Shown in pieces: positions 9,703 through 44,173 of a stretch of DNA of 64,000 bases (the first letter of the stretch is position 1; every line of letters starts with the position of its first letter). The stretch spans positions 23,505,052 to 23,569,051 of the forward strand of contig OX344755.2 in NCBI GenBank assembly GCA_947034885.2. The letters run 5' to 3'. This DNA comes from Thuidium tamariscinum. Taxonomy: Eukaryota > Streptophyta > Bryopsida > Hypnales > Thuidiaceae. A model generated the notes under the pieces. It did not search any database. It saw only the letters and a program-made list of their open reading frames with translations, and was not told where the DNA came from. The translations under genes were made by a program, and so were the position numbers.

Positions 9703-12700
9703 ATGAGGAGGGTGTTGGCTTTTCTGGTGTGGCTGTTTAGCTTCTGGACTTGGAAAGATTTCTTCCTTCGTTGGCTTCGGAGGTCTCCATTCCATCCTGC
9801 CAGCGGAGAGACTGCAGGGTCGGAGCCTTTGCCTTTCCAGGATGGGTCCCCAGAGTCGGAGTGGGCACGGTTACTTTCTTCCTTACCCGAAGATGAACGA
9901 TGGTGCAGTAAATTGCAGATTGATGGAGACTCTGGTGTTTTAATGATCTTTGGACCGAGTTGGGAAAACTGCTGTCACACTGACATGCAAGCAGGCTATT
10001 GTGAGTTTCTTGGAGCGGTTGCTTCATCAGAAATTGTGTTTCCTGAAGCTTTGGTTGTAGTTCTGCAGGGGGATGATTCTTTGAAACATATGGAAGCATT
10101 TGCACACGCACTCCGCCAATCTGGCAATGCTCTCTCAGAACTCCAGCTAGAATGTTGGAGCGTATCTGCAATCCCATGTGCCAAATGTCTCTCCAATGCG
10201 CTGCTCGGAAATGATGCTATTCAAGATCTCCGCCTTGGTTTTTTTTATCTAAATGGGAAGATGAGTCAAGAGGACACTACGGAGTTCATGGCTGTTGTTA
10301 CTGTACCCCACATTCTCCGAAATCTCAAAGGATTTACAATCCATGTTTATGATTATTGTTCTGACTGGGATGGCAAACAGCTGACGCAGCCATTCAATAG
10401 CCCTGACAGTGTCCTTGAAGAATTCGGAATTATTCACGTAGTATCTGATGCTCAGCTTCAACATATAAGTGGTGTACTTGCCAAAAATACATCCCTCAAT
10501 ACACTCACATTTGGTAATATTAATTTACGTCATGTTGATTTTGGTACTGTTGATGGTGAGAAGATGAATGAACTCTCGAGAGGATACACTAGCATAGCAT
10601 TGGCATTGTGTTCCAACCGATCTCTTCAAGTCCTCCGTTGTGAACTCTCTAGTAGCATGGAGTTGAAGGCATTGTTGGATCCATTGATGCCCAAAGCCAA
10701 CAATCTCCAGTCCAATACCACCCTCACCCATATAGTACTATGTGGATCTGTGGGAGGAAAAGAGGGGATTAGAATCTTAAGTGACATGCTTCGCACCAAC
10801 ATATCCTTGTTGGATTTATCTCTCTTGGAACTTTTTGAATTATGTTCTGAAGATGTAGAAGCGAGTGAAAATGTTTTAGCCATCTTGGAAGCTCTCAACA
10901 CTAACAAATGCTTGAAGAGCATTAGTTTCCAATCATGTTCAGGAGTTGGTGGTTACAAAGTGCTTGGAGCAATGATGGACTTGTTATTGGAGAATCATTG
11001 CATCGAAGACATTGACTTAGAGGGCACACCTTTCGATGAGGCAGGAGATGCAGAATATGTATACTCTGCATTATCAAAGAGAAAGAGTATGAAATTGTGG
11101 GATATTGTACAAGACATGGCAAATGTGAAACCCACATCTGGGCGAATATTCTTGTGTGGAGAACCATTTGCTGGTACGCTATGCATATCCAAGTTTTTAT
11201 ACATAAATGCATGATTCTAGCTTTTCATTTATTGCTATTTGAAATTGAAATGATTACTAAGATTGTCTAAAATTAGAATATTAATTTTATGAATAAATTA
11301 GACACATGTGTAGCTATCAATATGCAACTTTCTAAATTATCCTTTGATTTTAATTATGCGATAGATCACAAGATTTGTGGAGATAGCTCATGAAGTTTTT
11401 AGAGTAGATGTTGGTTGTTCTACTTTTTATTGGATAGATTTTTTCTAACAGTGTAATGAGAGTCACATTTGAGGTTCGTTAAAAAATAAAACACTTTGCA
11501 TATACCTTAAACTCTTAGAAGCTTATGTTTCTTAAATGAATATATTGTTTTGGTTGAATACTTGAATTGACATGTATCCAAATATGTATCTTTGAATCAT
11601 TCTATTTTTAATAATGAAAAGATGGCTAGATGGCTCCAATGAGATTGATTCACAAATTTCATAGGTCATCAACTCACCATTAAGCAAAAAAATCAAATTT
11701 ATGAAGTTGTTCTCAAAATGTGTCTTTTAAAGTTTCAAGAAAAATATAAGTATTGCTAATTCTTGGAGGGTTGCTATTATGTGAGCATAAAAGTGTGAGC
11801 CTATGAGCCTAGAAGACTATACATCTATGATATAAGTGTCTATACTATAGTAATTTTCTATGTTAATAGTGTATATATGCTATAAGCACCTATATTATAG
11901 GTGTTTATGTTATAAACACCTTCAAATGGTTGCATATACATACTTATCTATATGCTCAAGGCTCACATGCTCACACTTTCATGCTCACATACTAGCACCG
12001 TTGCTAATTCTTGTTGCATATTTGAACATTGTCATTGTTAAAGTTGATTTCATTCACTATTACATAAAAATTATACTTGCATTGTTAAAAAATATATCTC
12101 ATGAAGCAACTCCATTCCTTCCTTTGGAAGTCTAGACCTATTTTGAGACAAAGAGAGAAAGAATATTACAAGCAAGGTATTATAATTGAGTAGATTGATT
12201 TGAAATTGAATATATATTGCTTTAAAGGTTTTTTCCTAAATAATTCTATTGTTTAGTACATGTCAAGGGATTTGTATGTTTTCCATATTAATTTTTGAAG
12301 ACAAGACTTCACCTTTGAGAAGGATTGAATAAATTTGTTTCGGGATTAATAATGCATAATCTTGTTATCAATGAGATGTTTTATTTAAAATCTTTAAGAA
12401 TTTTTTTGATTATTTATTATGCTATTTTAGGATCATTGCAGTAAACACCAATCCCATTTCCTATCATAATGTGAACCACTTTTATATTGTTCACTATAAC
12501 TTTTGGAGATTAAGCCTATTGAACATAAATTTTTTATTGAAAATACCTAACTTCATCACTTTATATTTGAAAATCATTTTTGTTGAGTCATCATAGGATG
12601 TAGTTTACAACAATTACTACGTTAAAGGGAAAAAATTTAATTATTTATAAACAAAGTTTTCAAGGTCTGTATGTATAGGTGTAAAACATATAACTTTCCA

Positions 12701-15700
12701 ATGAAATCTGAAAATATGTTATTTTATGTCCTCTATATGTGTACAAATTTTTTCTATAGTGCACAATTTTTGAACATTAGAGATGGTTTTAAGATTATTT
12801 TTTTGGTGAGATTTCATCAAAATCCACTTTTTCAAAATGTCCAATTTTAAGTTTTTCTTAAAATTTCTATTCCTATTATTTACAAAAACAAATGTAAAAG
12901 TATCAATTTTCTTAAGATATTGCACTTAGGTAGTTTTCCTACTTAGAAATTTTTTCTATAATTTTCCTTTCTGTGGTACCTTCTTCGTAAAGGTATATAC
13001 CTGAAATACATCTTTTGCTATTTTTAAAAATTGTTTTTCTAATTTTAAAGCCCTCCCAAAGAAAAAAAAGAGTATTGTGAAAATGCTCCACTTTGCAGTC
13101 GATGTTTCTTACAATGACTCCTAAATGATTCCATAGTCACTTGGTTTTATGAAATGGTAAACATGTCGAAACCTTTGGGAAATGATACTCCTAATATTAT
13201 TTTAGTTCTCCAAAAAATGTGAGTTGCATATTGTAAATGAATGGTATGTAATCCATACATTCAATTTATGGTTTTCACATTGCAATAAAAAACATTAGTG
13301 TTGACCAAAATTGGCCCTTGTATAGGTAAGACACAATTGCGACTCTCTATAAAGCAATCCAAGGAATTCCAACACAACAATGAAGTCCAAAACTCTTCAA
13401 AGGGGATTCGATCCAAAGTGCGAAGGGCATTCAAGAGGCCCAAAGCTACAACAAAGCCAAAAGAAGACATGCTCCTTGAACGTACACAAGGCATTGAAGT
13501 TGACAATGTGTTTTGCAATGACATTCACATTTCCATGTGGGATATGGCTGGTCAAACTGACTATCATTCTTTTCACGAGCTAGTGATGCCAAATTTCTCT
13601 GCTGATGGAAGTTGTTCAATTTTTTTGTTGATGTGCAATCCAATGGAGCAAACAAATCTCTACAAAAGACGCCGCCCAGAAAAAGTGAAAGCAGAACTTG
13701 AAACTTGGTTGCGATTTATTGCTTCCAACACAAGGCGATCCTATTCATATCGCCCACATGTGTCAATAGTAATGACACACTTTGACTATTGGAAGGATGA
13801 TGGTCCATTTGTAGCCTGCATTGAAGAAGAGGTTAGAAAGTTAAGACTTCAATTTGGAGAGGTCCTTGAATTTGATGATGACAAGATTGCATTCAAGGTA
13901 AATGGTAAGGATGTCACCGATGCAAGCAATGTGTTTGATTTCATCAAATCTTACTTGAAGCAATTATTGGAGAAATTGCCAAAAACCATAAGCGCATGTG
14001 AAGAAGTGCAACATCTTATAGCACAATGGAATGCAGACAAATCACCACCCTTGTTGAAGTGGGATGACTTTTGTGAAAGCATGTGCAAAGATGTGGAAGA
14101 CTTCAAAAATGAAAATCAAGAGCTTGCTAAAAGAAGGAAGGAATTTGTAGCTGTATCATTGAGTGATGGGGGCCACATCATCTATGATGAAAATGAAGGA
14201 GTTGCCATTACAAATCCCCATTGGTTTTGCCACGATATCATGGGTCAATTCCTACACCAATGTACAAACAAGGGTTTTGAATTGGACATGATTTTATCCA
14301 ATGGAATCATATCCATTGACCATGTGAAATGCTTCATGTTGAATCTTCTTCCAAAGGAAGGTGATATTGACAAGAAGTTTGATGACATCTTAAAGATGAT
14401 GAAAAAACTCCACATTTGTTATGAGCAAGATACAAATTGCATCTTGATACCATCAACTTTAAAGGAGCCTAATGAAAAGTTGGGTTGGTGTGAAGTTGAT
14501 GAATCAACAAGCTTCAAGTATGTTGGGAGAAGATTGGCTTGCCAGGATGGACTGAAGACAATGTTGACTCCAGGATTTTTCACACGGCTTCAGGTGATCA
14601 TCTAAACTTATTATCATAAAATTATATATTTGGGTGTTTGCAAGAAACACTTGCCACTTTTCATAGCACTTTTCCCAATACTACGAACACTATCAACAAA
14701 CTACCAATGCAATATGCTTTTGACACGTGTACTAGAGTCAGGTGTTATTGTGGCCATTGAATGACATTATCTTACATATTGTATTATTTAAAAAGTTTGA
14801 CAAGTGGGAGAATGTGGGATTTAAGTCAGATGTGGAAGTACTACGTCTACATAGCAATACTTAGGAGCAGAAGACTGCAATTTTTTTAGAAAATATAGTG
14901 ATCCAATTTTAATTCATAAAAAATCAAAAGTGATTTATTTATTTATAATTATGTCTATTTTTTCAAATCTCCTTATCATCACTTTCATCCAAAAAAATTA
15001 GAGTTACAATATTTTTAGAATTTATAAATGTGCGCGCCATTGAGCTATATTATATAGCATATATATCATACAGAAATAACTAAAAATTGGATTCCAAACC
15101 ATATTCATAAGTTTATAAGGTGGAGGAACACACCACCAAAATATCATCTCAAAAGCATTCATTTTGATTACTATGAACATAGTGAATCCTTGTTCCCCTA
15201 ATGTATGAGGAGTGGACAGAATTAATATTTAAATACAAAAAAAAATTTAAAAAATTTAAAAAAAATATGGAACCCTTAAGCATGAAGTTAGTTAACTCCA
15301 ATAAAAATTTCAAGGTGAAAAAATTTTGGATTCAAAAGTTAAAGAACAAAAGGAGAAAGTGGTTTCAATTGTGACATGAAATAGGACAAGTGTTTCTTGC
15401 AATGACTCATTTGCAATGTTTTATATTTATTAAAAAGAATAGATTAATCTTGGCCATCCCATAATAGTCTACACCGTACGTTATGGAGTCACCATCCATT
15501 TTTTAACTAAAATCATAACTCACTCTCTAATGTCACAAATGCTACCATTAATACTAGGGGCTGAAGCTTGGTATGCTATGCATTCATTGTATCACATATT
15601 AATAAAAAAAATTATATATTTGAATAGAATGCATGATATTGATTTCAATAAGTCTTTAAAATAATTATCTTAAGTATTTTATAAGAATGTTTTCAATCAC

Positions 15701-17627
15701 GAATATATGAAAATCTTATTGTTACACAATGTGATATTACAGAAAAAGAGTAGCAATTTGCAATCACTTTTATAATATCACTTTTTAAAAAGAGTGATAT
15801 TATAAAAATAATGTAATTATTGCAATGAAGGTGATATTAAAGAAGATCTACAAGAAGATATGATAGAGGTAGCAAATCCATTGGTTTTCTTGGTTTAGTG
15901 CTTCTTTGGGCTTCTATGATCTAGTGCTTTTGTGAAATTTGAGCTTACATGATATCAATTTTCTAAATTCTAATGATGATTGCATAGCATAGCAAGCACC
16001 AACCGCTAGTTTTAACAAAATAAAATAGAATAATTGTGGATAATCTCAAAAAAAAAATTCTAATTTGCTTTATTCCAATACAATATGCTAAATTCTATTG
16101 GTGTATGATTTTTTATTTGAATATTGGACTCTAAATAAATGAATTAGGTGACATCTAATTCTTCAATGTCCCAAATCTTTATTAAATGCAATTCTTTTGT
16201 TGATCATGTATTGTCTCTAGGTTTCTTTCTTTGAAATGCTTCAAAGCAACAATGACAAACGTACATACAAGGTGTTTCGAGATGTTATCAAGTTCCTCAC
16301 TATTGGCATTGAAGTGATTGTTCAATTCAATGATGGCGACATCGACATCCTTTCACGCTCCGATCAATCTCAAGACAAAATCTTGGCATTTCTTGAAATC
16401 AACATCATTGACCACATTAAACATCTTCAAGAAGATCCCACATTGGGTTGTCCTGGTGTAAAACTTATAGAGTACATTATGCGACCTGAGTGTGTCAAGA
16501 AGTTGCTTAGTCCAATGGACCGCAAAACTCAAGTTGTTCATGTGAAAGACCTAGAAGTGGAGGTCATGAACCATGGTGTAGATGCTAGACATAGTTGGGG
16601 TTCATGTGAAGGCTTGGATGTTGGGTACCACACAGTGAAAACTTTATTGGGAGATGTGGCATATCATATTCTCTTAATAAGAAGGAGCAACCAACTAGAA
16701 GAATATGACCAAAAAATCCAATCATTGGATTCTTCAATTCGAAATGATCCTTCTTTCTACAATAAGAAGAGAGTTGATGTGTCAACCACTAAACATTGGC
16801 AAATGCCTTGGTATCGTCGAGATAGAGATTTGGTGGTTCAATTTGGAAACATGCAAGACAACATCAGTCAGATGTTAAAACAACAACATGATGAAATTAT
16901 GTCCAAATTGGATATTATAGTGGAGATGATACAAAAGTTGGAACATGGCATCAAAGACATGCAAAAGGAATTATTGGACAAAGTGTGTTCAAAGATTGAT
17001 GATGTGATGGCATTCTCAGTGGAGATGAAATGCTCAAAAATTCCCAAAATCGCATATCTTAGTGAAATTGGCAACCCAAAACTTTTGACACGATTTGTGC
17101 CTGGTTTGAATAAAATGAAACTTCACCTCATGTGTGAAAGTATTCATGGATTCCACCATATCACAAACCAAGAAGGTTGGGTAGTGAATTTTGGAAAGGA
17201 GGAGACAAAAAGATTTCTTGCAATGACAATGTATGGATTGAAGATAGTCACCATATTAACAAAGATTGGTGCACATGTAGCTTGTGGGATGGGCGCAATG
17301 GTACCTGATCTTAGTGAAGGCTTTAATTTTGCAACCACGATTCTTGACTCATCTGGATTGTTAGACTATCCAATTCCTCAAGTGACTTTGGAGTCACTAC
17401 CACTTGAAGCAAGGAATGTTTCAAGTCTTTCAATTGATGATACATCCGATGCTCAAAGGTGGTTGCGAGAGTTTTTGGAGCCAAAATGTGAAAACAAGAG
17501 TTCAGAGTTCTATGAGAAATTCAAATTGAGAAGGGTGAAATATAGGAGCTCAAGAAAAAGGTCAATTGCTTGGATTTGTGATGATTGCCTTTCCAATCAA
17601 GATGATTCAAAGGATGTATTGAATTAG
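9703..17627 (+). CDS. LRR-Roc-COR (ROCO) GTPase, TORNADO1-like, copy A
   Basis: Exons 9703-11173, 13326-14593 and 16221-17627 join in frame to 1,381 aa, about the length of plant TORNADO1, the LRR-Roc-COR family member. Exon 1 encodes a hydrophobic N-terminus (residues 4-24) and LRR-like repeats. The Roc P-loop GEPFAGKT (486-493) is completed across intron 1 (phase 1, G|GT). DMAGQ (563-567) is the G3 motif and THFD (641-644) the G4 motif. COR starts near 717, and a coiled coil lies at about 1123-1178. Intron 1 is 2,152 bp and intron 2 is 1,627 bp, both with GT..AG. Both introns are enlarged by transposon insertions absent from copy B. The ATG at 9703 was chosen because it opens the block conserved in both paralogues. 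ROCO proteins are GTP-regulated dimeric scaffolds. The ligand or pathway here is unknown. Confidence 0.9.
12430..13120. mobile_element. GGGTG-family TIR element in ROCO-A intron 1
   Basis: The left end (ggatcattgcagtaaacac) and right end (gatgtttcttacaatgactc) are diverged versions of the family's inverted ends. The element lies in intron 1 of ROCO-A, and the corresponding place in ROCO-B intron 1 (near 36270) lacks it. The target duplication is no longer clear, so this is one of the older copies. It is about 691 bp with no coding frame. Confidence 0.7.
14632..15408. mobile_element. GGGTG-family TIR element in ROCO-A intron 2, TSD ATTT
   Basis: A 777-bp element with ends gggtgtttgcaagaaacac and the matching reverse complement. 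It is flanked by ATTT at 14628-14631 and 15409-15412. ROCO-B intron 2 has an uninterrupted site near 37770. No open reading frame is present, so it is non-autonomous. Confidence 0.88.
15508..16016. mobile_element. 509-bp insertion flanked by TTTTAAC
   Basis: Relative to ROCO-B, ROCO-A intron 2 carries an extra block here. The heptamer TTTTAAC ends just before it (15501-15507) and closes it (16010-16016), whereas copy B has a single ttttaac near 37868. A 7-8 bp duplication would fit an hAT-type element, but I see no convincing terminal inverted repeat, so the class is unassigned. Confidence 0.5.
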
Positions 17628-20391
17628 AATATCACCTAGCAAAGATCTTGACATAGTTTTATTTCTATATGATAATTTTCATGATGTAGACTTTATATTA
17701 GGGTATTTTTCTAGTAGTAAATGAAAGAGATCCTTTGTCTTTAAGGTAGTATTTGTCATTATTATGCAATTTTATAAGTAATAAATTTAGTTTCATAAAC
17801 AAAGGAAATTAAACAATATGATGGAAGATGTTTCTAGCATTTTGAGTATAGTCTTAGTTCTTTAGTATTATAAATTTAAGAAGTAAACTTCATATTTTAT
17901 AGAATATTGGTCAATCAACAAACTATTTTGGATAAAAGACTTGTTTTTTCTATTAGATTGATGTTGCACCCAACTCCTACTACAAATTGTAGATTCAAAC
18001 ATATGACATGAATTTTTTCACCTTATTTTGAAGCATGGTGAATTTCATTGAAATGGTGGATATTCTATGTGCCATTTTTCAGATTGTGTAGTCTAAATTA
18101 TAAAAGTGACATCTAAAACGAGTATAGAATTTATAAATTTAGGATAATCATAGATTTTAGACATCCAAGCCATATGGAGATTTTACACTGCATGGTCTAA
18201 ACCATCCACTTCATTTCTAGATTTCAAGCGTCTAAGAAAGGTATAGATGATAGACTATGTAGTCTAAACCTTGAAAGTGGCAAAGTTATGAAATGACCTA
18301 GCATTTAACTAGAATATTGCCAATTTAATGAAATTTACGATAAGCAATCAAAGCTAAAAGAAACCTACAATAGATTTACCTTTGTAAATATTGCTTCTTT
18401 TGTGTTTAATTGATGGAAAATGCAACACTACTGTTTTTTTATACAATTGAAGGAAAATTATGTTTGCAGAGAATCATAGTTTGTGTTGTATAAAACTTAT
18501 ATTCTACTTGTCAAGCCTCATACTTCTATGTTATTGTCAATAGACTAGTAAGTGAACTGCAACTTCTGGGCTATTGCAAGAAACACTTACCGGTTTTGTC
18601 TCAAAATGGCCTATTTCCATAAGTCTTGTGACTTTTGGAATAATTTTTTTTAAATAAAATAAAATATGTATAGTTTGAAGAGAAATGAGAATATTATGTC
18701 TCTTAAAATTCAGACCTAAGAAAATTCACCTCTAAAAGTTATGCACAAAAAAAGGACAATGGAAAATACAATGAAAATAGATGCTTTTTTCTTTGATTTT
18801 TTAAAAATAGTAAAAAAATTCAAAAAAATAAAATTCAAAAATAAATTTGTCTTAAATTAAATATCCCTTTTCTCCAACAAATTTCATCTTGAAAAAAATA
18901 TTTTGTGTTCTATACAAGTATACCTTGGTAGTGCACTTTGAGCACATGTGGAAGCTGGAAAGTTTAATATTTTCAAAAAATCTTCTTAGGGATTTTTTAA
19001 CTATACTAGAGGACAATGCATGCCAATTTTTAGCTCAAAATTTTCTTTTTTGAGTCAAAAATAGGACTAAAACCCCCCAAAATTGCCAAAGTAGACATCC
19101 AATCGGAGGCAATTTAAAAATAGTAAAATAATTTTTTTTAAATCAAAAAAATTACACAACATGTAAAACTTTTTTTTGCACCTTCATTCCAAATTTCAAG
19201 TCAAAAAAAAAAAGATGAAAAAGTTATGAGCAAAAAACTACTTGGTAAAGGTCAAGGGGACATAAAAAAAGGACAAGTGTTTCTTGCAATCACCCTTCTA
19301 TAAATCCAATGCTTGCCATTGTGACTATCAATACCATTTGTACTAGGTACAACTCCAAATATTGACATTTCACAACATACAATTGTATACACATGCTATT
19401 GTATAGTATTTTGACTTTCTTTTTATTTTCTTCTAATTTCAAGAGTGGATCTTGCCCATCTCTTCATAGATATTAGTTAAGCATATGAACATTGGTTTTG
19501 TACTATTATAATCCTTGATAGCACTAAGAACTTCACAATCTTGCAATCGACAAAAATTCTAGTAATATCCTTTTTTCTTCCCTACTAAGTTGGGACTTCA
19601 AAGGACTTCAAGGATTAAAAGCTTTGGCATTGGTGAAATTCACCTTGACAATCCTAAAGAATGAATAATATAGCTAGTCACTTAGATAATGTTATAAGTG
19701 TACAATCACAAATTTTTGAATTTTTATGTTGAGTTTGAAGTATTGTTTGAGGATTGCATCTTAATATATATGAGATGCAAGTCTCCCTCAATACTATTAA
19801 GATCTAGAATATACAAAAATCTTACTATTTGTCCAAGTTGGTAGATGTAAGATAATCAAACTATAAATGAATTGATGATGAATTGGGGGAATGAAACTGT
19901 AATGGTGAACTATCACCAAAGTTGTAGCTAATTTTTGAACAAGCTCCCACTAAAATAGAAGAACAAGAAAAAAGTGGATGTAATCATCATAATCATCTCT
20001 AAGAAATGTGAATTTGCCAATATTTGGATGAAGTTTATTAATTTCAAGTAGTAGTAAAGACAAGTGAAAATCATAATTATAAATAATCAAAATTGGACAA
20101 TTTGTCTAACTTGCTTGCATTTTTGGATGCATGTTGCCCTTCCATCAAGAAAACCAAAAAAGTTTACAAAATTGTCGTTCTTGGGTGAACCTAGAGCTAA
20201 CTAGTTGGCCACAAAAATCCATGGTCCTTGCCATGCCCTAGCCCCTACATCATGTAAGAGTTGCAAAGGCGTGCAATTTCAATCAACCGAAGGCAAAAAT
20301 TGCCTTATCATATGGACTACTAGCATGTCAATCAACCTCTTTCAATTACAATACTACATTTCAATCACAATTTTGGCATCAAAGGTGACAA
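17628..20391. repeat. ROCO 3' flank, copy A
   Basis: AT-rich non-coding DNA downstream of ROCO-A. It is repeated downstream of ROCO-B (39485-40855) and again at about 46155-48067, where it leads into the last exon of the intact POC1 gene. Copy A additionally carries a GGGTG-family element at 18568-19295. No gene was recognised. Confidence 0.8.
18568..19295. mobile_element. GGGTG-family TIR element, TSD TTCT
   Basis: A 728-bp element with left end gggctattgcaagaaacac and right end gtgtttcttgcaatcaccc. It is flanked by TTCT at 18564-18567 and 19296-19299. The third copy of this flank (near 46975) is uninterrupted, with ttcc at the site, and so gives an empty site. There is no open frame, and the interior is AT-rich. 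Confidence 0.9.
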
Positions 20392-20504
20392 TCAAGCTTC
20401 TGCAACTCTTGGTCTTTCTTTCTTTTTGTGGTTCTTTATATTTAACATCTGCATGAATTACAAATAAAGCATACTTAGTTACAAAATACAACATCAGGGT
20501 CGTT

Positions 20505-20820
20505 GCAAGAAACACCGTCCATTTTCCGTAGCGTTATGGAAATGGACGCTGTTTTCTTTGGGAGTACTATTTAATTAGAAAATCAATTTTAAAAAAATAT
20601 GAAAAATATGTCTAATGTATAAAACTTAAAGAAGAAGGTATCCTATGAAGGAAAACCTTAGGAAAATTCTCCAAGTAGGAGAACTAGAAAAGTGGAAAAT
20701 CTCATGAAAATGGGCGTATTTACATTTTAATTTGTAAAAAATAGGAAAAGTTATTTTTCTCGAATCTAAAAATTGGCCATTTGGGAAGAGTTGATGGTGA
20801 TGATATTCCACCAAAAAAAT
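20505..20820. mobile_element. Truncated GGGTG-family element
   Basis: The left end gggtcgttgcaagaaacac and about 300 bp of family interior are present, but no right terminus follows. It sits inside the POC1 pseudogene, where the coiled-coil exon is missing, so a deletion probably removed the element's right end together with that exon. The third copy of this region (near 48170) has no insertion. Confidence 0.7.
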
Positions 20821-21170
20821 AATCTCAACTCTATTATCAATGGTCAGAAACTGCGTGCAATGGGAGTGATGTTTGCACGCATGTGGAAGACATAAAATAA
20901 TGTATTTTTAGATTCCCTTGACTTGAATATAGGTGCACATTAGGGTCCATTTTGTTTAGTGCCTGTAAAGTGAGGCATAATGCAAAGTTTGAGTAGAAAC
21001 AAATTGAGCATTGTGCCTTTGTTACTACCGTGTACGCGCAGCTTCTTATGTTGGCAAGTGGGAAACAATCAACGGTACAAAACCATGTGTGATGCAATCT
21101 AGAAACCTAGCCATATTAAACCCTACCAATTGTAATTCTATTCAATTGAAGACGGTTTCTAATGTGAATC

Positions 21171-22165
21171 CACTACAAAAGAATGGGGTCTTTTAAGTAG
21201 TATCTTAGACATCATGTCTTTTAACCCTTTAGTGACTAGTTGACCACTTTTTGGTTGATTTTTGCACTCTTGGTTTAATATTGTTGAAAATACATTTGAT
21301 CACAAAAATCTCAAAGAGTAATGCAATTAGAGTGTCTTCATGCGCTTCAAACAAAACTAATTTCAAGAGATTTGGAGCATTAATTCATTAGCTATGAGGT
21401 TGCAAACTCAAATGGCCTGGACCTTTAAATGGGAAGTATTCAACAAAAATACGAAAAAGTCTCAACCAATTTGTGAGATTTTTTTGTATCTTGATGTCTT
21501 AACAAGGCATAAGTGTTTTTTCGTGGTCTCATGAATATCCAAAGTAAACTTATGCATTAAAATTTATGTAGCGCAAATTCTAAAGGGTCATTCAAGTCAT
21601 TGATTTTTATAGATTAAGGAAAACAATTCAAATTTCAACAAGGCTCTAAAAGTAAACATGATTTAGAGGTACATTTTTCTTTCTTCAATATACCCAATCT
21701 GCACATTTTACAAGGGTATTGTTTTTGATGACCACGTATGACCATTTTTTGTGAACTTCAAAAATTTGTAACTAATTAAAAAAAACTTCAAAAAATAGGA
21801 AATGACTTGGGTTAGATACCTATTCTACTTGCTTCTTGAGAAAAGTTTACTGAAAAATATTTAAAGATGTTCCACCTCCTTAAAATTCAATTCTAGCCCT
21901 TAAAAGGTTGATTTACGGACCTTCTACCTTATTTATAGCAATTTGTATCGTTGGTTGAGTTTGATTTTTTGTTAGGTTGAAGAATCTCCCTTATAGCAAT
22001 ACTTATACGGTTTGATCTAAGATTACATCTTTAGAGTGGCCACAAAATTCACTTTCTTTAAGAACTATGCTCACCCCGAAAATCAACCACAGTCACTAAA
22101 GGGTTAAGTAATGTCTTTTAATATGTCTTTCATATAAAATTTTACTAAAAAGACGTACCAGATCA
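21171..22165. mobile_element. CACTA-type MITE remnant, split by a nested TTAA element
   Basis: The left end CACTACAAAAGA and the following ttttaagtagt stretch match the palindromic MITE at 56994-57195. The interior is interrupted at TTAA by the element at 21225-22103. Interior sequence resumes after it and ends without a normal right terminus. The homologous POC1 intron (near 49160) has no insertion. Confidence 0.7.
21225..22103. mobile_element. TTAA-duplicating element (piggyBac-like MITE)
   Basis: The ends are CCCTTTAGTGACT and its exact reverse complement. TTAA lies immediately outside on both sides (21221-21224 and 22104-22107). A subterminal ggttgatttt block also occurs inverted at both ends. 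TTAA duplication with CCC-starting termini is typical of the piggyBac superfamily. There is no transposase frame, so the assignment is by ends only. It is nested in an older CACTA-type MITE. Confidence 0.8.
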
Positions 22166-24392: not shown

Positions 24393-24604
24393 TACTACAA
24401 GAAAAAGGTGCATTTTAAATATAGTCCTAGAAATAAGATTTTAAGTAATGACCTTATTAGGAGATTTTAATTAAGAAATATATGATTTTATAGTAAAATT
24501 TTACTAAAAAGACATGTATTTCTTACTTAAAATCTCCTAACAAGGTCATTACTTAAAATCTTATTTCTAGGACTATACTTAAAATGCACCTTTTTCTTGT
24601 AATG
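24393..24604. mobile_element. Palindromic CACTA-type MITE, TSD AAG
   Basis: A 212-bp element that is nearly a perfect palindrome, with ends TACTACAAGAAAAAGGTG and the reverse complement of CATTACAAGAAAAAGGTG. AAG flanks both sides (24390-24392 and 24605-24607). Copy A near 2450 reads aaatttgaagg without it, giving an empty site. It has no coding capacity. Confidence 0.9.
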
Positions 24605-29730: not shown

Positions 29731-29775
29731 CGATCAGCCAGAAGGATGGCTTACACACAGCACATTCATTAGACG

Positions 29776-30515: not shown

Positions 30516-33127
30516 TCGTGGCGTGATCATGAAAACACCATAACCTTTTTCCCTGGAAATGAATTTGAACATATCAATAATGTTGCACACTTTGTGTTTA
30601 TTTCTTCACAAAAAATCAGGCCATAAAAAAAATTCAATGAAATGAATGAATTTCAAACGTATTCAAAGTGCCCACCTTCCCTCGTTGCTGCCTTCCCGTA
30701 GCTGGTCTTTGTCCTCGTTTCTGTTGTCGGTCTCTGTGTCTTATTTGCGTCACCAGGCCACTTGTGGCTGGTGCCTTGTACCATTATTTCTGGCAATGAA
30801 ATTCCGTATCATTTGTTAAAAAGAAATTTTAAATCGTATTCAAAGACAATTTATTCTTTGTACAGTACAGAACGTGTCTGTCAGTGGATCTGCTGCAACT
30901 CCTTGATATCGATTCTGCGCAATGCTATTAAATCTTAAATGCTCTTTTGCTAACATCTGCATTCAACACCGTCAAGTTTAAATTGCAATATGTGATTCAG
31001 TAGCGCAGTTTGTAACCAACGTGGCCATCAATTGAGGCATTCTACGGACCAAACCGATTGAGTTGGTTTTAAAAAACTGCAGACGCATACTGGATACGGC
31101 ACATGTACTCGTTGAAATGTTCATCCACTTCCTGCAATCTCGTCCACATACAGTATAATCATCCTCGTCCACTCTTCTATTAATTTCTCACTCCTTGTAG
31201 CAGATTGATAAGGAATTTCCTCTTCAGATCGATCGTCACTGGATTTCACTACTAAACACACTGATAGTTTAGTGGTCCACATCGTCCTCAAATATTAACA
31301 ATCTGATGTCGTCACTGATGAGGACCGAGCGCTGGCGATGGAATTCAAACAACCGATTCGAAGGAGGTGTGCAAAATTAACTTGGAAGAACAACCAACGA
31401 TTACGAATTTGATCAAATGGAAACACTTGTCACCCGAAACTCCAAGATTCGCCTGAAATCCCAGAATTATCAACTTCACGCGGGTTTGCATTCTGGGTGA
31501 CGCAGCTCAAGCGTCTACTGTGGTGATCAAATCGGAGTCGCTTAATTGTGTCATCTCAGATATTTTATGACGAAGGAAGGCTTCATGACGAAAAGGTCCT
31601 TTAGTTTAGCCGATCAAAAGTTGATGAAACGTTATTCAAGAAAAAAAGTTGATGAAAGGAGTGAAAGGACGACGGATATGTCAATAAAGATATCAAACTT
31701 TATAACCTAAATGTCAACATTTGTGATTAATAAAATACTGAATCAAATTAACTTCTGTACAGTTCAGTCAGCGTATATCGCGAGGAAAAAGTCAAGATTC
31801 ATTTCAGCACTTGCCGTGTGTCTGCACTTGGAGCAGATTTTTTTTTTTTTTTTTTTAAACAGATGAAACGGAGGAGCAGATTGTCTGCAAATTGGGTTCA
31901 TATGGGCCTCCAGGCTTGTGCATGCACGCCTTGGCTCCATCATAAAATATCTTTTAATGGCATCAAATGGAAACAATCGACAGTAAGCGCTGCCTGTTCT
32001 TTTGTGTCAAAAAATAAGAAAATAAACGCTGCCTGTTCCGACTTCCAAGCACGGGTTGTACAGTACTGTACGCAGTTGCGTGACTAGGGGGCCGGCTGGA
32101 TCTGGCAATCAGTGCGCTGGATTCGCGGGGAACAACTTATTGAGAAACGAGTAGCTCGTGCGTTACCGCGTTGAGTGGAAATATATACCAGTCACGACGG
32201 TTCCAAATGCCACTGGCTGCCGTAAGCCGACATGGAGAACTTAAACGTATGTATCATTAGCAAGTTGTAGGAGTGCTCTGGATCTCAGCTTTGCGATGCA
32301 GGTGATGAAACATAATATTGCTGTGGAGGTCGTCTAATATTGCTCTCATTTTGTAGCTGGGGCGAGTGGGAACTTTGGGTACCCACCGCCGAGAGTCTCT
32401 GAGTGGGAGACGAGTGTTTTCAAGAGTCCACAAGCTTCTGGGTCGTGCATAGCCAACGTTACAGAGCACTCGTGCCATTTCTGGTCGACAGGCATCATCC
32501 CCACGAGTGCTTCGCTTCGCCGCAGCGGTGTAGTGCTGTTTACAGTTTGCTGTCCGTCTCTAGACGAGGAGAAGTGGCCTAGCTAAAGAGAGATCTGTAT
32601 ATATAAATCATGTGAGGAATTACTGGTTCTGGCACGGCTTGGCAAGCTTGCGTGCCCACATCGAGGGTGAGCAGTTGCATCCTGCGCGAGGATGGACTTC
32701 ATGTCCCTTGCAAGTGGCTGATACTTAGAGCACAGTCTGTGAGAGTAGTTGCTGTATCCCTCCCTTCCCTTCCGCATACTTTGGCTGGATGAAGCTTTTG
32801 GTAAAGAGCACACGACCTGTTGCAAGAACTTTGCTTGGTCGACACTGACGCGTTGCAAGCACATGAAGGCTTGTTTTTGTTGAAAGTAGGAGTGGTCTTT
32901 CGATTTGGTAGAGACGATCGAAGGTTGTTGACGCCGTGGTGTGTAACTTGGGAAGTACGTGGGTGAGGAATTTGGATCCCATAGGGACGACGGTGGATGG
33001 GGTTTTCTGAACCAAAGCTTACAGACACGGTTTTAGGAACTGACCGTTTCTTCTCCTCGCGCCTTCTGTTCGTTTGTGCGTGAGATTTTGCAGTGAAGAG
33101 CTCTGCGTTGGGGTAGCCGAGGGCAAG
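30516..33127. other. Intergenic and leader region of ROCO-B
   Basis: From 30516 to about 32250 I recognise no gene. There is a T-run at about 31838-31856 and only short unsupported frames. From about 32250 to 33127 the DNA aligns with the region before ROCO-A and probably holds the promoter and 5' leader. Confidence 0.5.
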
Positions 33128-36100
33128 ATGAGGAGGGTGTTGGCTTTCCTGGTGTGGCTGTTTAGCTTCTGGACTTGGAAAGATTTCTTCCTTCGTTGGC
33201 TTCGGAGGTCTCCATTCCATCGTGCTAGCAGAGAGACTGCGGGGCCGGAGCCTTTACCCTCTCAGGAAGGGCCCCCAGAGTCGGAGTTGGCACGGTTTCT
33301 CTCTTCCTTACGCGAAGATGAACGATGGTGCAGAAGAATGTCCATTGCTGGAGACTCTAGTGTCACACTGATCTTTGGACCGAATTGGGAAGAATATTAC
33401 ACTGATATGCAAGCAGGTTATTGTGAGATTCTTGGAGCAATTGCGTCATCGAAAATTGTGTTTCGTGAAGAATTGTTTGTGGGTCTATGGAAGGACGATT
33501 CTTTGAAACATATGGAAGCATTTGCACATGCACTTTGCCAATCTGGCAATGCTCTCTCAGAACTCAAGCTAGCATGTTTGAGCACATACGCAATCCCATG
33601 TGCCAAATGTTTTTCCAATCTGCTTCTCAGAATTGATGCCATTCAAGATCTCCACCTTGGTTTTTTGAATGTAAATGAGAAGATGAGTCAACAGGACACT
33701 ACGGAGTTCATGGCCATTGTTGCTGCACCCCACATTCTTCGAAATCTCAAAGGATTTAAATTCTCTGCTCATGATTATTCTTCTGATTGGGACGGCAAAC
33801 AATTGATGGAGCCATTCAATAGCCTTGATAGTGTCCTGGAAGAATTCGATGTCGGTTATGTATTATCAGATGCTGAACTTCAATATTTAAGTGGTGTGCT
33901 TGCCACAAGCACATCCCTCAAAACACTCTCTTTCAGGAAGGTTGCTGATGACAAGAATGAATTCACGAGAGGATACACTAGCCTAGCATCGGCATTGTGT
34001 TCCAACCGATGTCTTCAAACCCTTCACTGTGGACTTTCTAGTAGCATGGAATTGAAGACGTTGCTGGATCCATTGATACCCAAAGCCAACAATCTCCAAC
34101 TAAATACCACCCTCACCTATCTAGAGCTAAAGGGATCTGTGGGAGGGAAAGAGGGGATTAAAATCTTAGTTGACATGCTCCAAACCAACATGTCTTTGCT
34201 GGACATCTCTCTTTCTTCACTTCATGAATTATGCTCTGAAGATGTAGAAGCAAGTGAAAACATTTTGGCCATCTTGAAAGCTCTCAAGACCAACAAATGC
34301 TTGAAGAACATTGGTTTCGGATACTGTTCAGGAGTTGGTGGTTACAAAGTGCTTGGAGCAATGATGGACTTGCTATTGGAGAATAATTTCATCGAAGACA
34401 TTGACTTGAACATGACACCTTTGGATGAGTCAGGAGATGCAAAATATGTATATTCTGAATTATCAAAAAAAAAGAGTGTGAAATTGTGGGATATTGTACA
34501 AGGCATGGCAAATGTGAAACCGACATCTGGGAGAATATTCTTGTGTGGACAACCATTTGCTGGTACGCTATGTGTATCCAAGTTTTGTATATAAATGTAT
34601 GATTCCTGATATTCATTTATTACTACTTGAAATTGAAATGAATACTAAAGATGTCTAAAACAAGTGTATTAATTCTATGAATAAATTAGATACATGTGTA
34701 GCTATCAATATGCAACTTTCTAAATTATCCTTTGATTTTAATTATGCTATAGATCATAAGCTTTGTGAAGATAGCTCATGAAGTTTTTAGAGTAGATGTG
34801 GGTGATTGCAAGAAACACCTGTCCTATTTGTTGCGTTTTGCTGATTTTTTTGGGAGTACTTTAAAATTAGAAAATTAATTTTAAAAAAATTTTAAAAATA
34901 TAAATAGTGTATATACCTCTAAGATGAAGGTTTTGACCGAAGGAAATGGATAGAAAAATTCTCTAAGTAGGAGAACTTGAAAAGTGCCAAACCTCCAGAA
35001 AATACATACCTTCATGTTTTAATTAGGGAAAAATAGTAAAAATAGATATTTTCAAAATATAAAAAGTGGTCATTTGCAACAACTTTATAGAGATGGTCAT
35101 TCACCAAAAAACTCACTAAAATAATATTTTATATGTTTCAAAATACAAGCAGAAGGGAGCTCACTTTGTAGACCTCCACACCTCACAAAATTAACTTTTT
35201 TTTAAAATCCTTTCCTAGAAAGCTATAAGTCTACTAGAAGACCATCTCATCCAAATTTCATGTTAAAATCATTAAAAAAAGGTATAGCTCAGGTATAGAA
35301 AACCCCTAAACTGCCAAGTGTGACATCCAATCGGGGTCTGTTTATGGATAGTAAAATATTTTTGAAAATTATGAAAAAATTATGGAAGGTTTATGATAGT
35401 TATGAGCACCTTCCTTCCAAATCTTGAGTCAATCGGAGCTAAAACACAAAAGTTATGGCCAAAAAACAAATCAGAATGCGACGTGTGACACAAAATAGGA
35501 CAGGTGTTTCTTGCAATCACCCATGTTGGTTGTTAGACTACTCTTTATTAGATAGGTTTTTTCTAATAGTATAATGAGAGTCACATTTGAGGTTCATTAA
35601 AAAATAAAACACTTTGTGCATACCTAGAAGGCTTATGTTCTTTAAATGAATATATTGTTTTGGTTGAATTGACATGTATCCAAATAGATGTCTTTGAATC
35701 ATTCTATTTTTCATAATGAAAAGATGGCTAGATGGCTTCAAAGAGATTGATTCACAAATATCATAAGTTGCCAACTTACCATTAAGGAAAATAATCAAAT
35801 TTATGAATTTGTCTTCAAAATGTATCTTTTAAAGTTCCCCAAAAAATAAAAGCATTGCTCATTATTGTTGCATATTTGAACATTGTCATTGCTTGAATTG
35901 GTCTTATTCACTATCACATGAAAATTATACTCCCTTTGTTTGAAAATATATCTTGTGAAGAAACTTCATTCCTTCCATTGAAATCCTAGACCTATTTTAA
36001 AAGAAAAGGAGGAAGAATACTATATTTGAAATTTTCAATTCAAAATTGAATATCTATTGCTTTCAAATTTGTTTTTCTAAATAATTCTATTATAAAGTAT

Positions 36101-39100
36101 GGGCTGAGAGATTTTCCATGTTTTTTATATTAATTTTTGAAAACAAGATTTCATCTTTAAGAAGGATTGAATAAAATTTGTTTCGGGATTAAAGGCACAA
36201 AACCTTGTTATCAATGAGACGTTTTATTGAAAATATTTTTCTAAAATGTTATTATTTAATGTACTATCTAAATGATTCCATAGTCATTTAGATTTATGAA
36301 ATGGTAAAAATGTCAAATTATTTGGGAAATGATTGTTCAAATATTATTTTAGTCCTCAAAAAAATGTAGGATCCATATTGTAAATAAATGGTATGTAATC
36401 CATATATTCAATTTATGATTTTCACATTGCAATAAAAAAACATTAGTGTTGACCAAAATTGGCCACTGTATAGGTAAGACACGATTGCGACTCTCTATAA
36501 AGCAATCCAAGGAATTCCAACACAACAATGAAGTCCAAAAATCTTCAAAGGGAATTCGAACTAGATTCCGAAAGGCATTCAAGAGGCCAACAGCTACAAC
36601 AAAGCCAAAAGAAGACATGCTCCTTGAACGTACACAAGGCATTGAAGTTGACAATGTGTTTTGCAATGACATTCACATTTCCATGTGGGATATGGCTGGT
36701 CAAACTGACTATCATTCTTTTCACGAGCTAGTGATGCCAAATTTCTCCGCTGATGGAAGTTGCTCAATTTTTTTGTTGATGTGCAATCCAATGAAGCGCA
36801 AAAATCTTTACAAAAGACGCCGCCTAGAAAAAGTGAAAGCGGAACTTGAAACTTGGTTGCGATTTATTGCTTCCAACACAAGGCGATCCTATTCATATCG
36901 CCCACATGTGTCAATAGTAATGACACACTTTGACTATTGGAAGGATGATGGTCCATTTGTAGCCTGCATTGAAGAAGAGGTTAGAAAGTTAAGACTTCAA
37001 TTTGGAGAGGTCCTTGAATTTGATGATGACAAGATTGCATTCAAGGTAAATGGAAAAGATGTCACCGATGCAGGCAATGTGTTTGATTTCATCAAATCCT
37101 ACTTGAAGCAATTATTGGAGAAATTGCCTAAAACCATAAGTGCATGTGAAGAAGTGCAACATCTTATAGCACAATGGAATGCAAACAAATCACCACCCTT
37201 GTTGAAGTGGGATGACTTTTGCGAAACCATGTGCAAGGATGTGGAAGACTTCAAAAATGAAAATCAAGAGCTTGCTAAAAGAAGGAAGGAGTTTGTAGCT
37301 GTAGCATTGAGTGATGGGGGCCACATCATCTATAATGAAAACGAAGGAGTTGCCATCACAAATCCCCATTGGTTTTGCCACGATATCATGGGTCAATTTC
37401 TACACCAATGTACAAACAAGGGTTTTGAATTGGACATGATTTTATCCAATGGAATCATATCCATTGACCATGTGAGATGCTTCATGTTGAATCTTCTTCC
37501 AAAGGAAGGTGATATTGACAAGAAGTTTGATGACATCTTAAAGATGATGAAAAAACTCCACATATGTTATGAGCAAGATACAAATTACATCTTGATACCA
37601 TCAACTTTAAAGAAGCCTAATGAAAAGTTGGGTTGGTGTGAAGTTGATGAATCAACGAGCTTCAAATATGTTGGAAGAAGATTGGCTTGCCAAGATGGAG
37701 TGAAGACAATGTTGACTGCTGGATTTTTCACACGGCTTCAGGTGATCATCTAAACTTTTTATCATGAAAGTATAAGTTTGCAATGTTTTATATTTATTCA
37801 AAAGAATAGAGAAATCTTGGCCATTCCATAATAGTCTACACCATATGTTATTGGAGTTACCATCCATTTTAACATATTGAAATAGAACAATTGTAGATAA
37901 TCTTGAAAAGAAATAATTTCTAATTTACTTTTTTCCAATACAATATGCTAAATTCTATTAGTCTATGATTATTTATTTGAATGTTAGTCTCTAAATATAT
38001 GAATTAGGTGACATCCAATTCTTCAATGTCTCAAGTCTTTATTAAATGCAATTCATTTGTTGATCATGTATTGTCTCTAGGTTTCTTTCTTTGAAATGCT
38101 TCAAAGCAACAATGACCAATGTACATATAAGGTGTTTCGAGATGTTATCAAGTTCCTCACTATTGGCATTGAAGTGATTATTCAATTCAATGATGGCGAT
38201 ATTGACATCCTTTCACGCTCCGGTCAATCTCAAGACAAAATCTTGGCATTTCTTGAAATCAACATCATTGACCACATTAAACATCTTCAAGAAGATCCCA
38301 CATTGGGTTGTCCCGGAGTACATCTCATAGAGTACATTATGCGACCTGAGTGTGTCAAGAAGTTGCTTAGTCCAATGGACCGCAAAACTCAAGTTGTTCA
38401 TGTGAAAGACCTAGAAGTGGAGGTCATGAACCATGGTGTAGATGCTAGATATAGTTGGGGTTCATGTGAAGGCTTGGATGTTGGGTACCACATGGTGAAA
38501 ACTTTATTGGGAGATGTGGCATACCATATTCTTTTAAAAAGAAGGAGCAATCAACTACAAGAATATGACAAGAAAATCCAATTATTGGATTCTTCAATTC
38601 AAAATGATCCTTCTTTCTACAATAAGAAGAAAGTTGGTGTGTCAACCACTAAACATTGGCAAATGCCTTGGTATCGTCAAGATAGAGATTTGGAGGTTCG
38701 ATTTGGGAACATGCAAGACAACATCAGTCAAATGTTAAAACAACAACATGATGAAATTATGTCCAAATTGGATATTATAGTGGAGATGATACAAAAGTTG
38801 GAACATGGCATCAAAGACATGCAAAAGGAATTATTGGACAAAGTGTGTTCAAAGATTGATGATGTGATGGCATTCTCAGTGGAGATGAAATGCTCAAAAA
38901 TTCCCAAAATCGCATATCTTAGTGAAGTTGGCAACCCAAAACTTTTGACACGATTTGTGCCTGGTTTGAATAAAATGAAACTTCACCTCATGTGTGAAAG
39001 TATTCATGGATTCCACCATGTCACAAACCAAGAAGGTTGGGTAGTGAATTTTGGAACGAAGGATACAAAAAGATTTCTTGCAATGACAATGTATGGATTG

Positions 39101-39484
39101 AAGATAGTCACCATATTGACAAAGATTGGTGCACATGTAGCTTGTGGGATGGGCGCAATGGTACCTGATCTTAATGAAGGCTTTAATTTTGCAACCACGA
39201 TTCTTGACTCATCTGGGTTGTTAGACTATCCAATTCCTCAAGTGACTTTGGAATCACTACCACTTGAAGCAAGGAATGTTTCAAGGCTTTCAATTGATGA
39301 TACATCCGATGCTCAAAGGTGGTTGCGAGAGTTTTTGGAGCCGAAATGTGAAAACAAGAGTGAATTCTATGAGAAATTCAAATTGAGAAGGGTAAAATAT
39401 GGGAGCTCAAGAAAAAGATCAATTGCTTGGATTTGTGATGGTTGCCTTTCCAAGCAAGATGATCCAAAGGATGTATTGAATTAG
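33128..39484 (+). CDS. LRR-Roc-COR (ROCO) GTPase, TORNADO1-like, copy B
   Basis: Exons 33128-34562, 36474-37741 and 38081-39484 join in frame to 1,368 aa with the same intron phases as copy A. The P-loop GQPFAGKT (residues 474-481) is again split by intron 1. DMAGQ and THFD motifs, the COR region and the coiled coil are all intact. There is no premature stop. Exon 1 (LRR) is about three quarters identical to copy A and 12 codons shorter, the main gap lying where copy A has extra residues after its TFGN segment. Exon 2 has the same length as copy A, and exons 2 and 3 are about 95% identical to it by eye. Intron 2 is only 339 bp, the likely ancestral size. Both paralogues look functional. Confidence 0.9.
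34800..35522. mobile_element. GGGTG-family TIR element in ROCO-B intron 1, TSD ATGT
   Basis: A 723-bp element with ends gggtgattgcaagaaacac and the exact reverse complement. The inverted match continues into the cctgtcctattt stretch with little change. ATGT flanks it at 34796-34799 and 35523-35526. ROCO-A intron 1 (near 11407) has a single ATGT and no insertion. It is the cleanest copy in the window, with no coding frame. Confidence 0.93.
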
Positions 39485-40855
39485 AGTATCACCTAGCAAA
39501 GATCTTCATATAGGTTTATTTCTACATGATTAGTTTCATGATGTAGACTTCATATATTAGGGTATTTTTCTAGTAGTAAATGAAAGACATCCTTTGTCTT
39601 TAAGGTAGTATTTGTCATTATTATGCAATTTTATAAGTAATAAATTTAGTTTCATAAACAAAGGAAATTAAACAATATGATGGAAGATGTTTTTAGCATT
39701 TTGACTATGGTCTTAGTTCTTTAGTATTAGAAATTTAAGAAGTAAACTTTATATTTTTTTAGAATAATTGTAAATAAAGAAACTATTTTAGACAAAAGAG
39801 TTTTCTTTCTTATTAGATAGATTTTAACTTTTGTGCACAATTCCTACTAGAAATTGCAGATCCAAACATATGATATGAATTTTTGAAGCATGGTGAATTT
39901 CATTGAAATGGTGGATATTCTATGTGCCATTTTTCAGATTGTGTAGTCTAAATTATAAAAGTGACATTTAGAACAAGTGTTGAATTAAGAAATCTAGAAT
40001 GTTCATAGATTCTAAGCGTCCAAGCCGTATGGAGATCTTAGATTGCATGGTCAAAACCATCTAGTCCATTTCTAGGCTTCAAACATCTGAAAGTGGTATA
40101 GATGATAAAGCATGTAGTCTAAACCTTGAAAGTGATAAAGTTATGAAATGACCTACCATTTTATTAGAATATTAATAATTAAATAAAATTCACAATAAGC
40201 AATCAAAGCTAAAAGAACCTACAATAGATCTACCTTCATAAATATTTCTTCTTATGTGCTTTTATTGATGGAAAATGCAACACTAATTTTGTTTGTACAA
40301 TTGAAGGAAAAATTATGTTTTTACAAAATTATATCAATACCATTTGTACTAGCTACAATTCCAAATATTAACATTTCACAACATACTAATGTGTATACAC
40401 GCTATTGTATTGTATATTGACTTTCTTTTCTACATTCTCCCAATTTCAAGAGCGGATCTTGCACATCTCCTCATAGAAATTAGTTAAGTACATGAACATT
40501 GGTTTTGTACTATTATATTCTTTGATAGCACTAAGAACTTCACAATCCTGCACTCCATAGAATTTCTAATAATATTCGTTTTCCTTCCCTACCAAGCTAA
40601 AACTTCAAAGGACTTCATGGACCAAGAGCTTTGGCATTGGTGAGAGTCACCTTGACAATCCTAAGGAATGAATAATATAGCTAGTCACTTGGGTGATGCT
40701 ACAAGTGTACAATGACAAATCCTTGAATTTTTATATTGAGTTTTGAAGTATTGTTTGAGGATTGCTTCTTAATATGAGATGCAAGTCTCCCTCAATACTA
40801 TTGAGATCTTGGGTCTCCAAAAATCTTACTATTTGTCCAAGTTGGTGGATATAGC
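39485..40855. repeat. ROCO 3' flank, copy B
   Basis: Direct repeat of the start of 17628-20391 and of about 46155-47520. It ends abruptly after ttggtggata at about 40855, where unrelated DNA begins. It is non-coding. Confidence 0.8.
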
Positions 40856-40859
40856 GCTA

Positions 40860-41878: not shown

Positions 41879-42252
41879 CATTAGAGAAAATATGGATTCT
41901 CCGGACGGCTGCTAGGGTTTGACAAACCAGTCTATATACACAGTCTTGTGGAGTTACAGAAAGGGCAGAATCTCTGACAAAAATGCGTGACAGAGGTGCG
42001 TCAGCTTGTGTAAATATCTTGGGTATGTGATTTTCTTGTCTTTTTTTATTCCTGATCTGTTAGAAAAGGGTAACTATCGCATGCTCCTCCATTTAACTAA
42101 TGGTTCTTTGCAATTCAATGCACTGACAATTGCAAAACTGACATGAATGATAATAGGGGAAAAACATTTGTAAAGGGGAAATAAATGTTATCGAAAGGGT
42201 CCCCTCCGGTAGTTCTTAGCGGCCCTCCCGAGAATCCATATTTTCTCTAATG
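41879..42252. mobile_element. MITE with CATTAGAGAAAA inverted ends (copy 2)
   Basis: A 374-bp element with perfect 23-bp terminal inverted repeats at 41879-41901 and 42230-42252, beginning CATTAGAGAAAATATGG. It shares interior blocks with 6437-6765. No target duplication is obvious and there is no coding capacity. Confidence 0.82.
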
Positions 42253-42395
42253 CTTTGCAATTTTGGAATGTTTAGGCTTTACTATTGAATTTCGAGAAGC
42301 CATCCGTCAACGTCTACTCTTGGAAACCAACGAAATGAAGCCAACAACAGATGATCGACTCCTATAGCAGAAGTGAAGTCATTCATCTAGAACAG

Positions 42396-42496
42396 ATCTA
42401 GAAGGAAACTATAACATGATGCATTATGAGTACAATTTAGGAGGTCATTCATCTAGAAGGAAACTATAACATGATGCATTATGAGTACAATTTAGG
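42396..42496. repeat. 46-bp tandem direct repeat, period 55
   Basis: Positions 42396-42441 and 42451-42496 are identical (starting atctagaaggaaactata), separated by 9 bp. This is a recent local tandem duplication in non-coding DNA. Confidence 0.85.
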
Positions 42497-43445
42497 CATA
42501 ACCAATAATCCTGAGAATACAACTAAGCTTCACAGCTTCTCTCCAACTAATCATTAAGAACTAAAACATGCTCAAGCATATGATTCCTTTCTCTCATTAA
42601 TCAATGGACTTCTCACAATCCTCGTACAATTTGACAAAAGAGTTGTGACACTTACACTGGAGTCTTCTTCTAAGTAAAAGAAGCTTACTAGGACTTAAAT
42701 TCGGTTTGATTCCTACCCCTATACACATTCCAGAGAGACCTCACCCTCTTCACCAAACCTGAGCACAAGTATAGTGACATTCTACTACTACTCGACATTA
42801 TTCTATTCTACCAAAAAAACACTAACATACAATCATCCGCTACGTGACATCTGCTACACTCTGAGCTACATCGACTACACTTAGCCTTAACATAAGCCAC
42901 ACGGAGTTTGACTGCAGACAAGCTTTCCTCTCAATTCAAGCACATCTTCCTTCAAAACTCAAATTTTCCACTTAAGTATTGATACATATGATGCACTGCC
43001 CTTCAACTATACCTAGAAGTGAATTTCCTAGCACATACAGATAGATCTTTGGTATGTAGAGCCATACCAACCAGGATCGGCCTGAGGTCAATTTCTAAAA
43101 TGATTGGACTTCCTCGGAAACGTCCACATTGCCCTAGAAATAGTCGTGAACGTGTCCGTTGAATTCACCATATTCTGTGATCAACCCTACTAGCGACAAC
43201 TACAAAAGCCAACGTCTCAATGAACGGACTTTTCCTTATATTTACAAACTCACTGGACTAGGTTGTTCAATTCAATATTAAAATCTTACAATTTCAGCAA
43301 TTTATAAAAATGACGGTAGTGACAAATAATACCTTTTATGGATGTCAACATATTATGTCATGTACGATGTACCATTACTTGTTTGATTTTATTTATACAC
43401 ATGACACATCTACTGCAGAAGACCAACAATGTTTGCATTTTTCTA

Positions 43446-44173
43446 GAGTGAATGTAAGAAACACTTGTACTATTTGTTGCATTTTACTACAATACTCATG
43501 ACTTTTTCTGAAGTACTTTAAAATTACAAAATTAATTTGAATTTTTTTTTTTAAATATGAAAAATGTATACACCTCTAGGATGAAGGTTTTCACGATAGA
43601 AAATTGATAGAAAAATTCTCTAAGTAGGAGAACTTAAAAAGCACCTAACCTCAAGAAAATACATATCTTCATGTTTAAATTCGGGAAAAATAGTAAAAAT
43701 AAGTAAATAAAAAAAAAGTGGCAATTTGTAACAATTCTATGCAGATGGTCATTCACCAAAAAACCCTCCAAAATAATCTTTTATATGTTTCAAAATTCTA
43801 GCAGAAAGAAGCTCACTTTGTAGACTTCCACACCACATAAAAATAACTTTTTTCAAAATCCCTCACAAGGAGAGATGTAAATCTACTAGAAGACCATCTC
43901 ATCCAAAATTCATCTCAAAATCATTAAAAAAAGGTACTCCTTAGTACTAAAAACCTCCAAATTCTCATTTGTGACATTTAATCACTAGTACTATTTTAGT
44001 ATTAAAATATTTTTGAAAACTATGAAAAAATTGTACAAGGTGTATGATAGACATGAGTACTTTTTCTAGAAATCTTGAGTCATTTCAAACAAAAATGCAA
44101 AAGTTATGGCCAAAAAACAGATCAACACTTAGGTTGTAACGGAAAATAGTACAAGTGTTTCTTGCGTTCACCC
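43446..44173. mobile_element. GGGTG-family TIR element, diverged
   Basis: A 728-bp copy with left end gagtgaatgtaagaaacac and right end gtgtttcttgcgttcaccc. The interior aligns with the copy at 34800-35522. The flanking tetramers no longer match, so the target duplication has decayed or the flank was rearranged. Confidence 0.8.

Follow-up and report, generated by a model that had tools for sequence, protein, structure and literature searches.

A 64-kb stretch of the genome of the moss Thuidium tamariscinum (C7:23505052-23569051 of the 363-Mb assembly, called below the window in its whole length) contains six short elements with the same TIRs, and the locus raises the question of what kind of transposase could have moved them. 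Five of these elements have both ends, which are common to them over about 25-30 bp, and are 691-777 bp long. The young copy, 723 bp in length and bounded by identical 30-bp TIRs, lies at 34800-35522 (plus strand) within the duplication ATGT (34796-34799 and 35523-35526). Perfect duplications also flank the 728-bp copy at 18568-19295 (plus strand; TTCT at 18564-18567 and 19296-19299) and the 777-bp copy at 14632-15408 (no strand assigned; ATTT at 14628-14631 and 15409-15412), which has a different interior; all three pairs of flanks had been given correctly in the first-pass annotation of this DNA. An older copy of 728 bp at 43446-44173 (plus strand) is flanked by TCTA and TTTG, which agree in two of four bases. 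Both ends of the old 691-bp copy at 12430-13120 (minus strand; position 13120 as its right end is our own placement) are degraded, and its flanks read TTTA (12426-12429) and CTAA (13121-13124). The sixth element, delimited by end scan and comparison with its paralogue, is truncated and retains the left end only, as had been noticed before, but it occupies positions 20497-20919 (plus strand) and begins eight bases to the left of the start annotated earlier (20505).

Scanning of the window with GGGTGATTGCAAGAAACAC registered nine matches at no more than three mismatches, versus 0.05 expected from shuffled sequences; both ends of copy 12430, with four mismatches each, are additional to these nine. 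The termini of the family (GGGTGATTGC ends) are GGG...CCC. Under the same ends there are several partly related types of interior, four by our grouping, as one would predict for elements in which the ends are decisive. The copies at 34800-35522 and 43446-44173 are 78% identical, and the copy at 18568 matches the one at 34800 in its right third at 70%. Copies 12430 and 20497 are mutually related (72%, inverted) and both are in part akin to copy 34800, relative to which the body of copy 12430 is inverted; copy 14632 has mainly the ends in common with the others. The paralogue of the block at 20497 carries 748 bp (48170-48917) where the right part of the copy is missing, and probably one deletion took this part together with some flank. 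No open reading frame of at least 130 aa is present inside the window copies, and for this reason the family is one of MITEs, that is, of non-autonomous, non-coding TIR elements. Copies fetched from the whole genome with the 723-bp copy at 34800-35522 as a query are short as well: all 39 measure 722-724 bp, and 38 of them have TIRs at both ends, the right end of the remaining one (L023) being damaged.

Duplicated blocks in the window, which include 9314-20496, 32743-40855 and 46204-48169, provide natural empty sites for the insertions of MITEs. Comparison of paralogous blocks revealed such sites, all on the plus strand, for copies 34800 (11408-11411, ATGT), 12430 (36268-36271, CTAA), 14632 (37776-37779, GTTT, one base off) and 18568 (46971-46974, TTCC, one base off); for copy 43446 none was found in the window. 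Two 40-base flanks of each copy were joined minus k bases, with k varied from 0 to 8, and aligned to the empty site, and k = 4 gave the best score for all four copies that have one. Thus, the empty sites claimed previously for the three perfectly flanked copies do exist, a fourth is added for copy 12430, and the proposal that empty sites place insertions relative to local duplications proved to be sound for these four copies: either the insertions postdate the duplications, or the paralogue lost its element by precise excision. The duplicated blocks also hold genes. One of their open frames has a weak match to the Roc domain, below the Pfam cut-off (E 0.00098), and an open frame resembling it, as judged by eye, was seen in DNA sampled on the right-hand side of the window. 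An AP2 domain was found in the open frame at 60692-62335 of the window.

The 4-bp length was upheld by a genome-wide comparison of flanks, made on 40 nearly full-length scored copies (39 fetched ones and window copy 34800), which are the best of 5,814 first-look candidates and are biased towards young insertions. Exact 4-bp duplications flank 37 of these 40 copies (36 of the 39 fetched and the window copy), as compared with 13 of 1,560 mispaired flanks. At other lengths exact pairs were scarce: six at k = 2, one at k = 3, one at k = 5 and zero at each k from 6 to 10. The three exceptions are L023 with its damaged right end, L042 with one mismatch (AGCC/AACC) and L031, an otherwise typical copy with the 5-bp duplication ACGTG, which suggests that the cutting distance may vary from 4 bp. 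Among six more copies with both ends, sampled outside the window, three have exact duplications, two are one base off and one has no match. TTAA is absent among the 37 exact duplications. The first-sight annotation as a TIR family with 4-bp non-TTAA duplications is supported. Its targets are nearly free and A/T-rich, as are their surroundings. Outside the duplication the 37 sites have weak mirrored base preferences, approximately G-T-R-B-[4 bp]-V-Y-A-C. Two halves of single sites agree no more than expected (for instance, 8 observed versus 9.7 expected, 6 versus 10.9 and 9 versus 12.1 at three positions outside the duplication), and the symmetry of the target is therefore one of averages only.

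The genome contains 2,376 exact copies (1,172 + 1,204) of the 25-mer end GGGTGATTGCAAGAAACACYTGTCC and none of its reversed control; hence the six copies reported initially, correct for the window with its five two-ended and one truncated element, are far too few. In 264 kb of sampled DNA, made up of the window, an adjoining 100 kb and two 50-kb segments from other places (a non-random sample, since 164 kb were chosen around the finding), 11 two-ended and 7 one-ended copies were counted at no more than four mismatches per end, with pairing by eye. Two-ended stretches L055:7828-9207 (1,380 bp) and L060:6907-7989 (1,083 bp) are also MITEs, and their extra length was read as inserts. The insert in the former, nested and of about 0.65 kb, contains a remnant reading TIDSFF; by its ends and this remnant it is presumably similar to pogo/Emigrant elements. 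All 40 scored copies are 96-100% identical to the 723-bp copy, itself included, and diverge from their own consensus by 1.1-2.9% (median 1.9%). Such low divergence, although registered in best matches biased to youth, indicates at the sequence level that at least one subfamily has moved recently, while the identity of about 70-90% in other copies points to a long period of activity. Taken as a whole, this MITE family is genuine, abundant and recently active, and its mechanism is an ordinary one. A 23-base pattern of the TIR had no matches in viral contigs, and a 19-mer of it had a single match in 257 Gb of genome contigs, in a Spirochaetales MAG, which by our estimate is about what chance would give.

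Unlike interiors under the same ends, duplications left by a staggered cut and clean empty sites fit non-autonomous cut-and-paste elements moved in trans. Based on these data one can assume with considerable confidence that a trans-acting transposase with a 4-bp stagger and a nearly free target moved the MITEs; their movement as DNA in trans is what we infer. A transposase encoded elsewhere in the genome would recognise the common ends of about 25-30 bp, the element would be cut out and then inserted, by cuts staggered by 4 bp, into a target of almost any sequence, and gap filling would give rise to the 4-bp duplications. Our best guess, to which we give somewhat less than an even chance, is a transposase of the Sola kind, suggested by duplication length and host group. 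As characterized in the accessible part of PMC10741241, Sola elements make a 4-bp duplication, encode a DDD transposase, have variable ends and occur in plants, and the accessible part of PMC9033089 lists Sola1 for the moss Physcomitrella. The family described here is thus similar to Sola in the duplication length (37 of 40 exact, empty sites 4 of 4) and the presence of TIRs, and the report of Sola from a moss and its variable terminal sequence are in line with this guess (same portions of PMC10741241 and PMC9033089). It differs in that most Sola elements are 2-9 kb long and code for the DDD transposase (PMC10741241, in part), whereas the MITEs are shorter than 0.8 kb, non-coding and have no coding partner found. 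If the guess is true, Sola would count among the major recent influences on this plant genome and would be no mere curiosity; otherwise a transposase is still to be discovered.

The longer transposase-encoding relative with the same ends envisaged by the first-pass annotation did not come to light, and no autonomous copy was found. A stretch of 8.2 kb between two exact inward ends on C1, read as a possible long element, turned out to be two separate MITEs 6.7 kb apart. Among the 100 of 2,376 positions of the 25-mer that were listed, all of them on C1 up to 14.9 Mb, no end lies, by eye, within 15 kb of the two listed PF13843 hits (C1:9136127 and C1:14575659) or the one listed DUF7869 hit (C1:14626365) in this stretch. 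The sampled DNA outside the window has 25 open reading frames of at least 170 aa, of which seven were inspected, by eye only.

It is rather unlikely, but more probable than any other alternative to Sola, that the mobiliser, with free 4-bp targets, is a transposase outside all described superfamilies. No link of the family to the two sampled transposase-like families (DUF7869 and piggyBac-type) was found, nor any coding copy, which would be in line with such an enzyme. However, Sola is a known superfamily that already has the required length and is reported in moss (PMC10741241 and PMC9033089), and nothing positive points to a new superfamily. A shade more doubtful still is the wider proposal that the MITEs make visible a hitherto undescribed superfamily of plant DNA transposons, which would cut with a 4-bp stagger at targets of almost any sequence and would have been among the busiest mobilisers of the genome. 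A 4-bp duplication is an uncommon length in plants, and a search by wording in open-licence literature found no description of 4-bp MITEs in moss, which is weak evidence of novelty. A survey of MITEs in 207 plant genomes deals, in its accessible part, with five superfamilies and Micron only (PMC12550479); a 4-bp family with thousands of ends would have no class in such a survey, to judge from this part, and could be misfiled or lost.

A role of the DUF7869 proteins encoded here as mobilisers of the MITEs is improbable, about half as likely as a transposase of no described superfamily. DUF7869 (PF25273) is abundant here (150 scored of 852 first-look candidates, versus 0 of 14 control genomes) and has many long open frames. 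Near one copy, L071, a TIR-like end with 2 mismatches in 19 faces inward about 0.3 kb beyond the stop codon, just past the 3' untranslated part. The second copy (L070) lacks such an end, while the third (L073) has the 3' part of the element in common, then diverges and has no TIR; thus the TIR-like end abuts one of three 3' ends read, and the part common to all three stops before it. The 3' ends read all come from one of two groups of DUF7869 copies, the other being that of profile 54-192. The junction at L071 occurs in the genome once at no more than two mismatches and the adjoining 3' part four times at no more than three, and no TIR at up to five mismatches is present in the 1.4 kb read upstream. 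A search for a partner end bearing the 4-bp flank of L071 gave 122 places at no more than one mismatch. Of the 100 listed, six are exact, none of them at the L071 locus, and the listing of one-mismatch places, which reaches contig C8 only and thus stops short of the contig of L071, is not exhaustive. Since MITE ends are dense here, their chance abutment is plausible, and the end at L071 is best read as that of a neighbouring MITE. The apparent link of DUF7869 to the family is therefore weakened by the third copy and the junction counts, and the ends read lean against it as a mobiliser.

Pfam confirms DUF7869 in both copies scanned. Open frames of this family reach 1,076 aa, and in one of them VDGMDQ, QADNTTREN and HTHEDID are found at residues 512, 593 and 631; these acidic motifs look like a transposase core, the function being unknown in Pfam. 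The L071 protein has no confirmed relative in viral contigs, phages or PDB sequences. Many DUF7869 hits (uncounted) are situated on contig C11. About 1 kb of the window at 21169-22156, with a CACTA-like start, is missing from the paralogous block and is partly related (68-71%) to the sequence upstream of the DUF7869 gene in L072.

Just as improbable as DUF7869 is an assignment of the family to Ginger or to CACTA/Chapaev-like (CMC) elements. Chapaev makes a 4-bp duplication, which would be suitable. Ginger, found in plants, has duplications of 4-6 bp, 5'-TG...CA-3' ends and TIRs of 40-270 bp, and CACTA elements end in CACTA/CACTG, according to PMC10741241. The duplication length of the MITEs is within the Ginger range, but their termini are GGG...CCC and not TG...CA, and their TIRs are of about 30 bp. 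The same termini distinguish them from CACTA, as does the only exact flank pair among 40 at k = 3, and two CACTA-like MITEs of the window have 3-bp duplications.

Even less credible is derivation of the MITEs from piggyBac with a relaxed target. The duplication made by piggyBac is also of 4 bp, at the target TTAA, and transposases of this type (PF13843) are abundant in the genome (116 scored of 659 first-look candidates, 0 of 14 controls), yet TTAA does not occur among the 37 exact duplications. One PF13843 hit is followed, 0.6 kb downstream, by the MITE copy L033, but the complete duplication of this copy (ATAG/ATAG) makes it read as a separate insertion, and 600 bases downstream of another PF13843 copy (L074) contain no such TIR, though the end of that element may lie further out. 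Several PF13843 hits have equal scores and a 1,023-aa open frame; the sequences suggest that these transposases may have spread recently.

MITEs of the common plant superfamilies are likewise short, non-coding, bounded by TIRs, very numerous and products of recent bursts, but 37 of 40 pairs exact at k = 4 do not fit hAT (8 bp), Mutator (7-12), PIF/Harbinger (3), CACTA (3) or Tc1/Mariner (2, TA), for which the available part of PMC10741241 gives these lengths. The misfit noted in the first-pass annotation for hAT, Mutator, Harbinger, CACTA and Mariner is thus real by duplication length, though it does not set the family apart from everything in plants, where 4 bp is known for Sola and Ginger (PMC10741241, in part). 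Palindromic MITEs with CACTA-like ends were also observed in the window, at 45385-45600, 56994-57195 and 24396-24601. The first two have the 3-bp duplications GTT/GTT and GAA/GAA, respectively, as for CACTA, and the third starts with TACAAG after CTAC... in its flank.
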